From Nitrospira sp. (GTDB lineage: Bacteria; Nitrospirota; Nitrospiria; Nitrospirales; Nitrospiraceae), in assembly GCA_005116885.1 (NCBI GenBank), contig SWDP01000002.1, forward strand, positions 492,315 to 525,582: a stretch of 33,268 bases of DNA, in the 5' to 3' direction. Both the position numbers and the translations under genes were made by a program. The notes under the pieces were generated by a model. The model worked only from the letters and a program-made list of their open reading frames with translations. It was not told where the DNA came from and searched no databases. Below, piece after piece: positions 12,996-32,890 of the stretch; the first letter of the stretch is position 1, and every line of letters starts with the position of its first letter.

Positions 12996-13815
12996 TAAGA
13001 AGTGGCTCCGGTTGGTTGGACAGCCTAGGCCATTCCTTAAGTGGCGCCTGGCGGGTTGCTGACGACGCGGCCTGCCGTGTCGTCAGATGGTCAGAGTACA
13101 CCTGGTCTGGCGTCTGGCCGTCAAGCGCCTGATGCGGTCTGGTCTGGTTCTAGAATGCCAGATACCGCTCCAACCCCTGGTGCGCAGCCCCAACGGTGTC
13201 GTAGGCGTGCAGATAGACCTCCTCGTATTTCACGGATTTCCACAGCCGCTCGACGAACACGTTGTCCCGCCAACACCCGTTTCCATCCATGCTGATCTGG
13301 ATGCCGTGATGCGTCAGGAGTCCCGTGAACTCCTGGCTGGTGAACTGGCAGCCTTGATCGGTGTTGAAGATGGTCGGGGTGCCATGTTGAGTGATCGCCT
13401 CCTGCACCGCCTCCAGGCAGAAGTCGGTGGTCAGCGTGGTAGACACCCGCCACGCCATCACCCGGCGACTGGCCCATCCCATCACCGCGAAGAGAGACAC
13501 AAAGCCCTGCGCCATCGGAAGGTACGTGATATCCGCCGCCCACACCTGGTTGGAGCGAGTGATCGCCAGATGGCGGAGCAGATACGGGTACACTCGATGC
13601 ACCGGATGTCGTTGACTGGTGTGGGGTTTGCGAAACAGCGCTTCGCTGCCCATACGGGTCATCATGGTACGCACCCGCTTGCGCCCGATCGTGTGGCCGT
13701 CTCTCCGCAAGAGGTCGCGTAACATTCGGGCGCCGGCAAACGGAGCGGCCAGATGGAACTCGTCGATCCGGCGCATCAGCGCGAGATCCGCTGACGACAC
13801 TGACGTCGGGTGCCA
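12996..13815 (-). mobile_element. IS3-family insertion sequence remnant
   Basis: The remnant holds most of an OrfB transposase on the minus strand; OrfA and the OrfB N-terminus are gone. The downstream end is placed tentatively at about 12996, where AAGAAGTGGCTCCGG resembles the end region of IS3-type elements following the LSNQPEP-type tail. The upstream end is cut at about 13813-13815, exactly at the foot of a dispersed hairpin repeat. A hairpin at 13060-13085 (TGACGAC/GTCGTCA with inner CGGC/GCCG) lies in its distal part. Confidence 0.7.
13002..13815 (-). pseudogene. IS3-family transposase OrfB, 5'-truncated with an amber stop
   Basis: The minus-strand frame encodes SSADLALMRRIDEFH, then the rve integrase core with Asp in VWAADITYLP, Asp in FNTDQGCQFTS and Glu in DNVFVERLWKSVKYE, so the DDE triad survives. 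A TAG at 13150-13152 replaces the Tyr of the usual YLAFYN. The frame continues behind it with NQTRPHQALDGQTPDQVY, showing a single nonsense change rather than a true end. The first roughly 50-70 residues of OrfB, and OrfA, are missing. The frame stays open leftward into unrelated repeat DNA but has no credible start. It is inactive unless complemented and suppressed. Confidence 0.88.
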
Positions 13816-13890
13816 AGGCTGCCCTTTACTGCGCGCATCGAACGAGCACATTCCTATCGTGCGCGTTCTGCGAGCAAGAAGGGCACCTGG
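13813..13890. repeat. Dispersed stem-loop repeat, copy A
   Basis: The core at 13828-13875 starts ACTGCGCGCATCGAACGAGC and contains two half-units 30 bp apart (TGCGCG at 13830 and 13860, each followed by an ACGAGCA or GCGAGCA end). It lies in the loop of a stem between 13813-13827 (CC-A-AGG-C-TGCCCTT) and 13878-13890 (AAGGGCA-CCT-GG), with two bulged bases. The stem foot coincides with the IS3 truncation point. Confidence 0.65.
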
Positions 13891-13904
13891 CCTTCTTGCT
13901 TTTT
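13874..13904 (+). terminator. Intrinsic terminator-like hairpin
   Basis: GCAAGAAGG (13874-13882) pairs perfectly with CCTTCTTGC (13891-13899) and is followed directly by TTTTT (13900-13904). It overlaps the right arm of repeat copy A, so the two folds are mutually exclusive. No plus-strand gene ends immediately upstream; it would stop read-through toward moaC. Confidence 0.6.
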
Positions 13905-13933
13905 CATCTTTTCTATTCCTTTTTTCCCTCTTA

Positions 13934-14030
13934 GCAGGGCGGCCTGTTTGTTCTCCCACTGCGCGTGTCGAACGAGCACCTTCCGAGCGTGCGCGTTCCA
14001 CGAGCACAGGAGGCCAACAGGCTGCCCTGC
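13934..14030. repeat. Dispersed stem-loop repeat, copy B
   Basis: The core at 13958-14007 (ACTGCGCGTGTCGAACGAGC and onward) has half-units at 13960 and 13990, again 30 bp apart. Copy A starts exactly 130 bp earlier. The arms GCAGGGCGGCCTGTT (13934-13948) and AACAGGCTGCCCTGC (14016-14030) pair over 15 positions with one G-T. The arm sequence is unrelated to those of copies A and C. The 13816-14110 gap holds these two copies, the terminator-like hairpin and the moa promoter. Confidence 0.7.
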
Positions 14031-14037
14031 CTCTCCC

Positions 14038-14067
14038 TTGACTGCCCTTTCCACCGGCTCCTATAAT
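14038..14067 (+). promoter_or_regulatory. Sigma-70 promoter of the moa operon
   Basis: TTGACT (14038-14043), an 18-bp spacer and a perfect TATAAT (14062-14067) lie 44 nt before the moaC ATG. The start would be near 14074. The -35 box begins eight bases after the end of repeat copy B. Confidence 0.75.
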
Positions 14068-26125: not shown

Positions 26126-27319
26126 ATGACATTTCATGATGACAGTCCCCGCGGACACATTCGCCTCTCTCGCACAGCTTCGACCGAGGCATGGGGGCAT
26201 CTCTGGATCTATGCCGGGTATGTCGAGGAGGTCAGCGGTAATCTGACTTCCGGCGATGTAGTCGATGTCATCGCGCCGAATGGACGATTCTATGCCAGAG
26301 GTCTCTATAATCCTGAGTCCAAGATCCGCGTGCGGATACTGACCTTTGACGACGAACCTATTACAGAACAGTTTTGGAGAGGACGGCTTGCGCAGGCTGT
26401 TAGGCTACGTCGGCGAATGGTGACCGGCACGAATGCCTATCGCCTTGTCTATGGAGAAGCGGATCGATTGCCGGGCTTGATTGTGGATCGATTCGACGAT
26501 GTCTTGGTCATGCAGACCCTATCCTCCGGTATGGACCATCGGAAAGACCAGTTGGCCGATCTCCTGTGTCAGGAATCTGGAGCGACGCGAGTGTATCTTC
26601 GCAACGATGCCAAAAGTCGCGCATTGGAGGGGCTGCCGCTCGAAAGAGGATTTCTCCGAGGGGGTGGTGCGACGATGGTCGAAATCCAGGAAGGGCCGGC
26701 TCGATTTCTTGTCGATATTGAGCGAGGGCAGAAAACCGGTTGGTTTTGTGATCAGCGCGAGAATCGTTTGGTGACGGCGGGGTTCGCAGCCGGTGCCGAG
26801 GTGTTAGAGGTGTTTGCTCATACTGGAGCGTTTGGGATTCATGCGGCGCTCGCGGGGGCGAAATCAGTGGAAGGACTGGATGTGAGTGAAGACGCCGTGG
26901 CGCTTGCGCGCAACCATGCGCAGCTCAATAAGGTGGAGGATCGTTGTGCCTATCGAACGGCAGATGCCTTCGATGAGATGCGAAAGCTGCAACGAGCCGG
27001 GCGCCGCTACGATCTGGTGCTGCTTGATCCGCCGGCCTTTGCCCGCAGTAAACAGGCTGTGCCCCGTGCGTTGGCTGGATACAAAGATGTGAATTTGCTT
27101 GGGATGCGGCTCACCAAGCCCGAGGGATTTCTCGCCACGAGTTCCTGCTCCCACCACGTGACCGAACAGGAATTATGGACTAGCATTCGGCTAGCAGCGC
27201 GAGATGCGAAACGGGAGGTCCGTCTGCTTGAACAGCGGGGGCAGTCCAGCGATCATCCCATCCTTGCCACCATGCCGGAAACGCGCTACTTGAAATGTTT
27301 CATCCTACAAGTATTGTGA
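26126..27319 (+). CDS. Class I SAM-dependent rRNA (cytosine-C5)-methyltransferase, RlmI-like
   Basis: 397 residues from the ATG at 26126, close to the 396 of E. coli RlmI. The N-terminal PUA domain (about 1-90) includes WGHLWIYAGYVEEV. An RlmI-like bridge follows (YRLVYGEADRLPGLIVDRF), then KTGWFCDQRENR and a Rossmann methyltransferase with the SAM site EVFAHTGAFGIHAA. The LLDPPAFARSK motif and the catalytic-type Cys in TSSCSHHV complete the set. This family methylates 23S rRNA cytosine (m5C1962 in E. coli). Upstream in-frame codons exist but the PUA domain starts here. The ribosome site is weak. Confidence 0.9.
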   Translation: MTFHDDSPRGHIRLSRTASTEAWGHLWIYAGYVEEVSGNLTSGDVVDVIAPNGRFYARGLYNPESKIRVRILTFDDEPITEQFWRGRLAQAVRLRRRMVTGTNAYRLVYGEADRLPGLIVDRFDDVLVMQTLSSGMDHRKDQLADLLCQESGATRVYLRNDAKSRALEGLPLERGFLRGGGATMVEIQEGPARFLVDIERGQKTGWFCDQRENRLVTAGFAAGAEVLEVFAHTGAFGIHAALAGAKSVEGLDVSEDAVALARNHAQLNKVEDRCAYRTADAFDEMRKLQRAGRRYDLVLLDPPAFARSKQAVPRALAGYKDVNLLGMRLTKPEGFLATSSCSHHVTEQELWTSIRLAARDAKREVRLLEQRGQSSDHPILATMPETRYLKCFILQVL

Positions 27320-27411
27320 GCGAGACAAGCGCGACGTGCGGGAGAGGCGCGACTCGTGAAGATGACACTTTCGATGCGTTGTGCTTTTCGCGCACGTGGC
27401 GCTTGTCTCGC
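27320..27411. repeat. 21-bp inverted repeat with a 50-nt loop
   Basis: GCGAGACAAGCGCGACGTGC plus G (27320-27340) and its reverse complement (27391-27411) match at 20 of 21 positions. The repeat begins one base after the methyltransferase stop and ends nine bases before the convergent XRE gene stop at 27420. It could end transcription on both strands or be a non-autonomous hairpin element. Confidence 0.75.
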
Positions 27412-27419
27412 ACGAATTA

Positions 27420-27881
27420 CTAGTCGCTGGGGGGTTCGAAGTGGCCCGATGGGCGATTCTGCCATGGGATTGTCGACTGTTTGGCCTGTTTGACGAGGCT
27501 ACGCAAATTCACTTCCGCTGCTCGGAGTAATTTTGGTTCGCCGCTTTGCACAATAGCAGTGAGCAGGACATACAGTGAGCGATCCATTTGTGACCCGGCG
27601 AGAATGCGTTCTGTGACAGGATCTGGGCCTGCAGGAATGGAACCGGCATCTTCCTCTGGATCGTCAAACAAGGTACGGAATGAGGTTGGATGGCTGAAGA
27701 GCCAGGCTGGAGGGATCTTGAGGGCTGCGGCAAGTGCTTCGAGTCGTGAGAGAGAGAGGTCAGTCTCTCCCGCCTCTATCTCCGCTATTACGTGGGGAAG
27801 GAGAGATAACTCGGTTGCCAAGTCGTCGACTGAACGGCCTCGTGAGATACGCCACGCTTGAATCTGCTCTCCCAGCGCCAT
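27420..27881 (-). CDS. XRE-family helix-turn-helix regulator
   Basis: 153 residues from the ATG at 27881. A longer frame from a TTG at 27917 would add 12 residues, but the AGAAGGAGG before it touches the codon directly, so neither start has an ideal ribosome site. Residues 1-65 form a Cro/C1-type HTH (LGEQIQAWRISRGRSVDDLA, then IAEIEAGETDLSLSRLEALA, then IPPAWLF). The rest, about 85-140, is helical and of unknown family. It probably represses or activates a local target, perhaps the divergent coiled-coil gene at 28052. The RES-domain gene lies 1.4 kb away with two genes between, so a Xre-Res pair is not supported. Confidence 0.8.
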   Translation of the reverse strand: MALGEQIQAWRISRGRSVDDLATELSLLPHVIAEIEAGETDLSLSRLEALAAALKIPPAWLFSHPTSFRTLFDDPEEDAGSIPAGPDPVTERILAGSQMDRSLYVLLTAIVQSGEPKLLRAAEVNLRSLVKQAKQSTIPWQNRPSGHFEPPSD

Positions 27882-30350: not shown

Positions 30351-30531
30351 ATACCAAATCCATTCTGAGAATTCGTTAGTACGATGACATAGCTATCCAC
30401 CCTTGGTCTAGCCTTGTGGCTTAACTGTGGCAGAACTGTCATGTTTGATCGCCTCTTCCCCTGCCTCTGACTCTTCTGTAAGTGATTGAGAACAAACCGA
30501 TGAGAAACGTCAGGTCTTATGTCTCTTCAGG

Positions 30532-30617
30532 GATGGGGGCTGATTGATCTTCTACTGCGCGCGTCCAACGAGGGGAGTCTGCGACCGCGCGGTGCGCGAG
30601 CACAGAAGATCATCAGC
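30532..30617. repeat. Dispersed stem-loop repeat, copy C
   Basis: The core at 30554-30603 (ACTGCGCGCGTCCAACGAG and onward to GCGAGCAC) carries half-units at 30556 and 30586, the same 30-bp period as copies A and B. The arms GCTGAT-T-GATCTTCT (30539-30553) and AGAAGATCATCAGC (30604-30617) pair over 14 positions with one bulged T. The rest of the 30351-30714 gap shows only weak promoter-like sequence for the RES and helicase genes. Confidence 0.7.
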
Positions 30618-30714
30618 ATCCGTCCCCCTTCTCTTTGAAAGGCTGGCGGAGAGTATGTTATACAGCGGTTCCCACGAATAACTGGACTGCCCAACATTTT
30701 CTTCGCGCATCTCC

Positions 30715-32736: not shown

Positions 32737-32860
32737 CAGGATGCTGAAAAAGTCCGCCAGCGTCGTTCTCGGTTCATCAAAATCCTCAACGTACCCCGAG
32801 GGTACGCCTCCGGTTTCGATTCGCCTGCGGCCTTGCTGAACGGCCTTTTTGAGCATCCTG
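32737..32860. repeat. 124-bp inverted-repeat element
   Basis: The ends are inverted: CAGGATGCTGAAAAAG (32737 on) and CTTTTTGAGCATCCTG (to 32860), with a second complementary block CCAGC/GCTG further in. A central perfect palindrome has CGTACCC (32790-32796) and GGGTACG (32800-32806). It starts on the base after the helicase stop. The TTTTT next to the inner stem means it can end transcription. I recall near-identical copies in Nitrospira genomes, which would make it a dispersed MITE/REP-type element. Recollection only. Confidence 0.75.
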
Positions 32861-32890
32861 TATGGCCATGAGTAATGCGGACTAAGATCG

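Follow-up and report, generated by a model that had tools for sequence, protein, structure and literature searches.

What keeps the two arms of a short repeat complementary when the arms of its different copies are unlike in sequence? The question is raised by three copies of such a repeat (A, B and C; Table 1) in a 33,268-nucleotide stretch of a Nitrospira genome (assembly GCA_005116885.1, contig SWDP01000002.1, positions 492,315 to 525,582), referred to here as the window. An earlier note, made from the sequence alone, had described three copies of a conserved core within unrelated but self-complementary stems. Three cores were found, each flanked by complementary arms, and the arms are of three distinct types: the GGGAGTGGCCAAGGCTGCCCTTT type in copy A, GCAGGGCGGCCTGTTTGTTCTCCC in copy B and GGGATGGGGGCTGATTGATCTTCT in copy C. 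The stem length of about 12–15 bp given in the note holds for copy A, in which loss of the outer arms has left about 15 bp, but complete copies have stems of about 22 bp. Fold z-scores against base shuffles were −4.4 for copy A and −6.6 for copy B, the two copies tested. The left arm of copy A is cut short by a transposase gene. This transposase fragment (rve, HTH_21), which we take to be IS3-like, occupies positions 13150–13812 on the minus strand, its edge truncating the 5' arm of copy A, and related copies with about 67–87% identity are present in many congeners.

Table 1. Positions of the repeat copies and of the adjoining promoters in the window
Feature	Position	Strand	Remarks
Copy A, 5' arm	13813–13827	+	Outer part missing beside transposase gene; arm type from comparison with other copies
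Copy A, core hairpin	13828–13876	+	GCAC/GTGC inner stem type; model match 13804–13904
Copy A, 3' arm (shortened)	13877–13892	+	From sequence and comparison with other copies
Copy B, 5' arm	13934–13957	+	From sequence and model match
Copy B, core	13958–14006	+	T-A pair at alignment columns 33–67 in place of the common C-G
Copy B, 3' arm	14007–14029	+	From sequence and model match
moaC sigma70-like promoter	14038–14067	+	TTGACT-18-TATAAT; adjoined by copy B
Copy C, 5' arm	30530–30553	+	From sequence and model match
Copy C, core	30554–30602	+	GGAGTC/GACC inner stem type; model match
Copy C, 3' arm	30603–30627	+	From sequence and model match
Promoter-like sequence of UvrD-family gene	30635–30664	+	TTGAAA-18-TATACA; adjoined by copy C

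The repeat is real, and the further copies that the note had expected from a genome search exist. In the host genome (3.19 Mb in 49 contigs, 84% complete), a 19-letter core pattern, ACTGCGCGNNTCNAACGAG, has 38 exact matches, compared with none for the reversed pattern as a control; with up to three mismatches allowed, the numbers are 130 and 32, respectively. The repeat is about 100 bases long, intergenic and present in many copies in Nitrospira and in bacteria closely related to it. Scanning of named genomes yielded at least 118 matching stretches, and 78 of the 80 listed are titled Nitrospira, Nitrospirae, Nitrospirota or Nitrospiraceae, the remaining two being titled Alphaproteobacteria and Nitrosospira. 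One viral contig also matched. With a covariance model, the family was detected in all 32 host-genus genomes searched (the host's own included), in all 5 genomes from other genera of the host family, and in 3 of 24 genomes from the rest of the order, with one match each. Of 148 genomes sampled across the phylum, 31 gave matches to the model, and every one of these belongs to the host family; among the genomes listed, one of the host family (G192) was without a match, and the 97 beyond the listing all lacked one. The copy numbers per genome are lower bounds, since no more than 66 candidates per genome were scored in the order-level search and no more than 27 in the phylum-wide search, with stricter filters applied in both. 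In the literature covered on Nitrospira repeats, REP, RAYT, MITE and structured RNA, to which most subscription journals do not belong, a description of this repeat was not found; a table row in PMC12306157 counts REP candidates in N. moscoviensis.

Other repeats occur nearby. A second dispersed repeat (CAGGATGCTGAAAAAG..CTTTTTGAGCATCCTG) at positions 32737–32865 of the window immediately follows the stop codon of the UvrD-family gene and has a terminator-like GGCC..GGCC-TTTTT end. Among the matches listed, its copies in seven relatives are 88–98% identical, and elsewhere it hosts copies of the hairpin element. A long imperfect palindrome (GTGAGCGAGACAAGCGCGACG..GCGCTTGTCTCGC) at 27307–27424 has similar sequence at another place (near 17.3 kb) in three relatives (L286, L289, L292) and therefore looks like another mobile palindrome family. 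Relatives L285, L289, L290, L294 and L296 carry intergenic, AT-rich palindromes of the TGGTTTGTTTTGTTTATCTGGTTC type where the window has other sequence.

For analysis of arm pairing, we gathered 177 full copies, 55 from the host genome and 122 from other genomes, a set that includes copies A and B and leaves out copy C. The collection pattern fixed TGCGCG and the CGAGCA-like end, so that invariance at these positions is partly built in, and copies that are related enter the counts repeatedly. The median arm pairing energy was −39.8 kcal/mol within copies, −21.5 kcal/mol when the arms of different copies were combined, and −16.3 kcal/mol with one arm shuffled. The earlier note had staked its reading on arms more complementary than shuffled flanks, and the two arms of one copy indeed pair far better than either control. 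The arms are not common to the family, given that they fall into 75 clusters, and 16 of the 177 copies have arms that match poorly. Neither this energy test nor the mismatch count described below involved selection on arm energy; an analysis of arm sets dropped copies with an arm score below 20.

To describe the core, we used a gap-free alignment of 51 copies, of which the 48 non-window rows represent one copy per arm cluster and were required to have an arm energy below −33 and a core length of 49 (142 of 177 copies passed). Given this selection on arm energy, arm pairing is favored by construction in the RNAalifold result and in the covariation count for this alignment. RNAalifold predicted that the core, which had been described as a loop, is mostly paired itself and thus forms a stem. 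The core covariation score was 0.375, compared with 0.082–0.153 for slid pairings, and none of 500 shuffles scored as high. Columns 34–66 contain 39 GC pairs, 11 AU pairs and 1 broken pair, and columns 37–65 contain 29 CG pairs, 21 GC pairs and 1 broken pair; two-sided changes were apparent at columns 33–67, 34–66, 37–65 and 39–63. Cores met later, judged by eye and uncounted, include replacements of T27-A73 by C27-G73 and of G32-C68 by A32-T68. From its base, the core hairpin consists of a TGC:GCA pairing, a G·A mismatch, 4 bp, a TC bulge, 5 bp, an A·G mismatch and an inner hairpin, of which the family has at least three types. The folded strand reads ACTGCGCG..CGAGCA, and the core hairpin is prolonged by arms of about 22 bp that are free in sequence and constrained in pairing. 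The exact 30-bp internal period that had been attributed to the core reduces to a recurrence of TGCGCG at 30 nt in copies A and B (the second TGCGCG being absent from copy C) and of CGAGCA at 28 nt, and we regard this recurrence as a side effect of hairpin structure. Five loci (L061, L092, L110, L128, L216) carry a variant core in which about 50 nt, holding an extra GGCACG..CGTGCC hairpin or a near variant of it, replace part of the 5' side.

The mismatches that interrupt the arms are distributed unequally between the two strands. With symmetric scoring of the 177 copies, the ACTGCGCG strand has 220 G·T and 38 A·C mismatches, and the ratios were 73:11, 42:4 and 30:3 in 45, 26 and 16 arm sets of falling similarity, respectively. 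The bias is present for either direction of neighboring genes, with ratios of 41:10 and 162:27 in the two gene orientations. Given that a G·T mismatch on one strand is an A·C mismatch on its complement, folding of one strand is indicated. With DNA parameters, the calculated fold of the ACTGCGCG strand is the more stable of the two strands in 165 of the 177 copies, against 12 in which the complement is the more stable; with RNA parameters, the corresponding numbers are 142 and 35. Among young changes in four arm types, 31 events created G·T and 20 created A·C, a weak bias with an excess that is mostly C>T. Part of the asymmetry could therefore be mutational, and mutational bias might even be the sole cause of the G·T excess, though this is less likely. 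Taken together, within-copy pairing, core covariation and the strand-specific wobble bias strongly support the proposal of the earlier note that selection acts on a folded molecule rather than on arm sequence.

The position of the copies relative to genes bears on the nature of that molecule. On the basis of gene calls made with a home-made hexamer scorer, an overlap with a gene exceeds 40 nt in only 1 of the 177 copies. Of the 137 copies with both neighbors called, 107 have an antisense gene at their 3' side (73 of them in same-direction gene pairs and 34 in convergent pairs), and of the remaining copies 19 are divergent and 11 sense; intergenic gaps of at least 120 nt in the window and named-genome loci, taken for comparison, comprise 208 same-direction, 70 divergent and 52 convergent cases. 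Within same-direction pairs, the genes run opposite to the ACTGCGCG strand in 73 of 84. Over the 125 copies whose 3'-side gene is antisense, a median of 17 nt separates the arm from the stop codon, and the stop codons within 60 nt of copies are TAG in 42 cases, TGA in 27 and TAA in 18, compared with 12, 13 and 13, respectively, for more distant ones. A sigma70 match (9 of 12) lies near 10 of the 39 copies that face a gene start and near 1 of the 137 other copies, and in 9 of these 39 the −35 box is located 30–37 nt past the end of the core, directly beyond the arm. By eye, copies B and C are placed likewise against their promoters. Because the element is mostly antisense and just past a stop codon, the wobble bias points to folding of a strand that is usually other than the mRNA strand. 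A hairpin in the 3' untranslated region of mRNA was disfavored, given that the sense strand would have A·C where G·T is observed, and single-stranded DNA fits better than mRNA because the favored strand mostly runs opposite to the gene beside it, although RNA made from an unmapped promoter is conceivable.

The main rival to a mobile DNA hairpin is that the same strand acts as a structured RNA or insulator, in which case the transcribed ACTGCGCG strand would fold and stop antisense transcription into the 3' end or the promoter of the next gene, thereby serving as a portable insulator. RNA folding of this strand would leave the same wobble signature, with G·U tolerated on one strand only, and the proximity of the 3' foot to opposing stop codons and, in sense-facing copies, to −35 boxes is as this explanation would have it. 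Strong and precise placement of this kind could mean function rather than tolerance. Runs of T follow the hairpin in 48 of 177 copies on the ACTGCGCG strand and in 4 of 177 on the other. However, 29 of the 48 runs are then followed by the motif of the second repeat that hosts copies, leaving 19 of 177, and an intrinsic terminator was rejected on this account. The 5' and 3' flanks are equally rich in pyrimidines, and the strand is antisense in most same-direction pairs as described above. In a search of Rfam, neither the window nor L302 or L311 had a match that reached the gathering score; three weak matches were at chance level. We regard the RNA or insulator explanation as doubtful, albeit the foremost of the alternatives.

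Comparison of orthologous loci with and without copies, which the earlier note had suggested, revealed filled and empty sites across relatives, often with different arms. Upstream of moaC, a recognizable gene start was present in 27 of the 30 loci retrieved (host included), and 20 of the 26 such loci from other genomes carry a model match. By eye, these matches stand against the same promoter and on the same strand, often with different arms; L198 has a different hairpin, and L214, L215 and L218–L220 have a similar promoter without the element. Copy C is common to the host and genome G027, the region being present without the element in G028, G025 and G026, and G019 has at this site just a 3' half with other arms and the same promoter. 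At one further orthologous site, the host has a copy, G028 has a copy with different arms, and G027 has none. In G026, a hairpin copy lies inside the second repeat, which is intact at that place in the window.

Copies are also arranged in tandem. Neighbors less than 400 nt apart were on the same strand in 12 of 12 pairs, with a spacing of 122–145 nt in 10 of the 12, and those 400–8000 nt apart were on the same strand in 17 pairs and on opposite strands in 4. A hybrid copy in L305 consists of the outer halves of two intact tandem copies in L310. Copies also nest within the loops of one another, and nested copies in L041, L092 and L128 have, by eye, CCTTC on both sides of the insert, possible target duplications of 5–6 nt; outside nested copies, no empty site with clean edges and a precise target duplication was found, and the empty site in L306 lacks a clean junction.

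Our preferred explanation, to which we assign a probability of roughly 50%, is that the repeat, about 100 nt long, is a mobile element that is lineage-specific and non-autonomous and that acts in the form of folded single-stranded DNA. It is REP-like or attC-like in behavior but, by the tests made, a member of neither class. An autonomous version was sought by pairing 5' halves with corresponding 3' halves no more than 3 kb away among the loci collected by then, which gave nine cases. The shorter candidates contain other elements or extra hairpins, and the three longest (L110, L229, L248), whose ends were read, are probably pairs of independent copies on either side of a putative gene; the L229 and L248 stretches contain frames of at least 80 amino acids. 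No mobilizing gene was found, and the presence of the element tracks neither Y1_Tnp nor integron integrase genes.

Spread by a REP-associated tyrosine transposase (Y1_Tnp) since lost from some genomes is unlikely. The element resembles REP/BIME and RAYT systems in its many copies, its intergenic palindromes in clusters near gene ends and its single-strand hairpin behavior (PMC2817692), and Y1_Tnp matches were detected in 33 of 61 genomes searched. It is, however, about 100 nt long with a conserved core and free arms, whereas REP is a short palindrome with a GTAG-like head (PMC2817692), and no conserved GTAG-like foot was found, the arm feet not being conserved across copies. Three genomes (G001, G008, G017), each 99% complete and with at least 66 copies, had no Y1_Tnp match, and the close neighbors on one strand do not alternate as in BIMEs, so that the REP-type transposase considered by the earlier note is not supported. 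A host Y1_Tnp (RAYT-like) gene (L041, 2099–2941) is bordered by inverted AAGATGTGACCCC sequences, apparently its own repeat. The hairpin element lies about 1.6 kb from this gene and differs, by eye, from the bordering inverted repeat; a second host Y1_Tnp gene runs off its contig.

The core boxes of integron attC sites are RYYYAAC and GTTRRRY. If the repeats were attC-like recombination sites, a tyrosine recombinase would drive array growth and core-to-core exchange, and the element does share with attC a bulged hairpin of one strand with AAC/GTT in the core, stem positions free in sequence, same-strand arrays and hybrid sites left by exchange. GTCCAAC in the core fits RYYYAAC, but GTTGCGC and GTTCYGC do not fit GTTRRRY, and the conserved part of the element is at the apex of the hairpin, not at its base. 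Integron integrase (TIGR02249) was above cut-off in just 3 of 41 genomes, including 2 of 25 of the host genus (matches below cut-off, which occur in all 14 control genomes as well, were discounted), and no gene cassettes were seen in the tandems read. The attC explanation is thus improbable to a similar degree. Least probable is a conventional MITE of double-stranded DNA bounded by terminal inverted repeats, in which gene conversion or template switching would keep the arms paired and strand-biased mutation would give the mismatch bias, for although a non-coding length under 200 nt, the possible target duplications in three nested copies and the prominence of C>T among young changes are compatible with it, arms in so many clusters are unlike ends for a transposase, arm correction equal on both strands predicts equal numbers of G·T and A·C, and the bias does not flip with the orientation of neighboring genes.

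BOX elements of pneumococcus are modular, stem-forming, mobile intergenic repeats. The present element is alike in these respects and is probably set apart by the order of its modules and by its covarying arms. YPAL, RU-2 and other small mobile repeats likewise are shorter than 200 nt, have internal inverted repeats and are not A+T-rich, and YPAL targets lie at or beside dyad symmetries, similar to the nesting of our elements in hairpin loops (PMC2229807). Here, by contrast, arms covary between copies and wobble is biased to one strand; the words covariation and compensatory do not appear in PMC2229807.

The step from the hairpin signature to a mobile mechanism is one that we infer, with a hypothetical mobilizer. 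For the mobile single-stranded hairpin, a protein may recognize the core hairpin on a single strand, for example during replication, and may cut and join at the hairpin feet. Insertion would occur at short pyrimidine sites such as CCTTC, which older copies carry in their inner loop and at their 3' foot, and would give rise to nested copies and growing tandems. Exchange between the cores of tandem copies would remove the intervening DNA and leave hybrid arms. The arms would drift through G·T intermediates, given that foldability alone is selected, and copies would persist where they are harmless, directly past stop codons or upstream of −35 boxes. A more specific and speculative version is a cassette-free hairpin recombination, in which a hypothetical Nitrospiraceae recombinase might read the folded strand, join core to core, and build, nest and prune same-strand arrays at gene ends and promoters while the arms drift and stay paired.

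The repeat offers, within one bacterial family, numerous natural replicates of a DNA element under structural constraint. The wobble bias tells which strand is folded and is applicable to other bacterial palindromes, in which it can separate selection on single-stranded DNA or RNA from plain inverted repeats. Nitrospira carries out nitrite oxidation and, in some members, complete nitrification. The elements lie at many of its gene boundaries, and whether they are moving, insulating or terminating bears on gene regulation in these bacteria.
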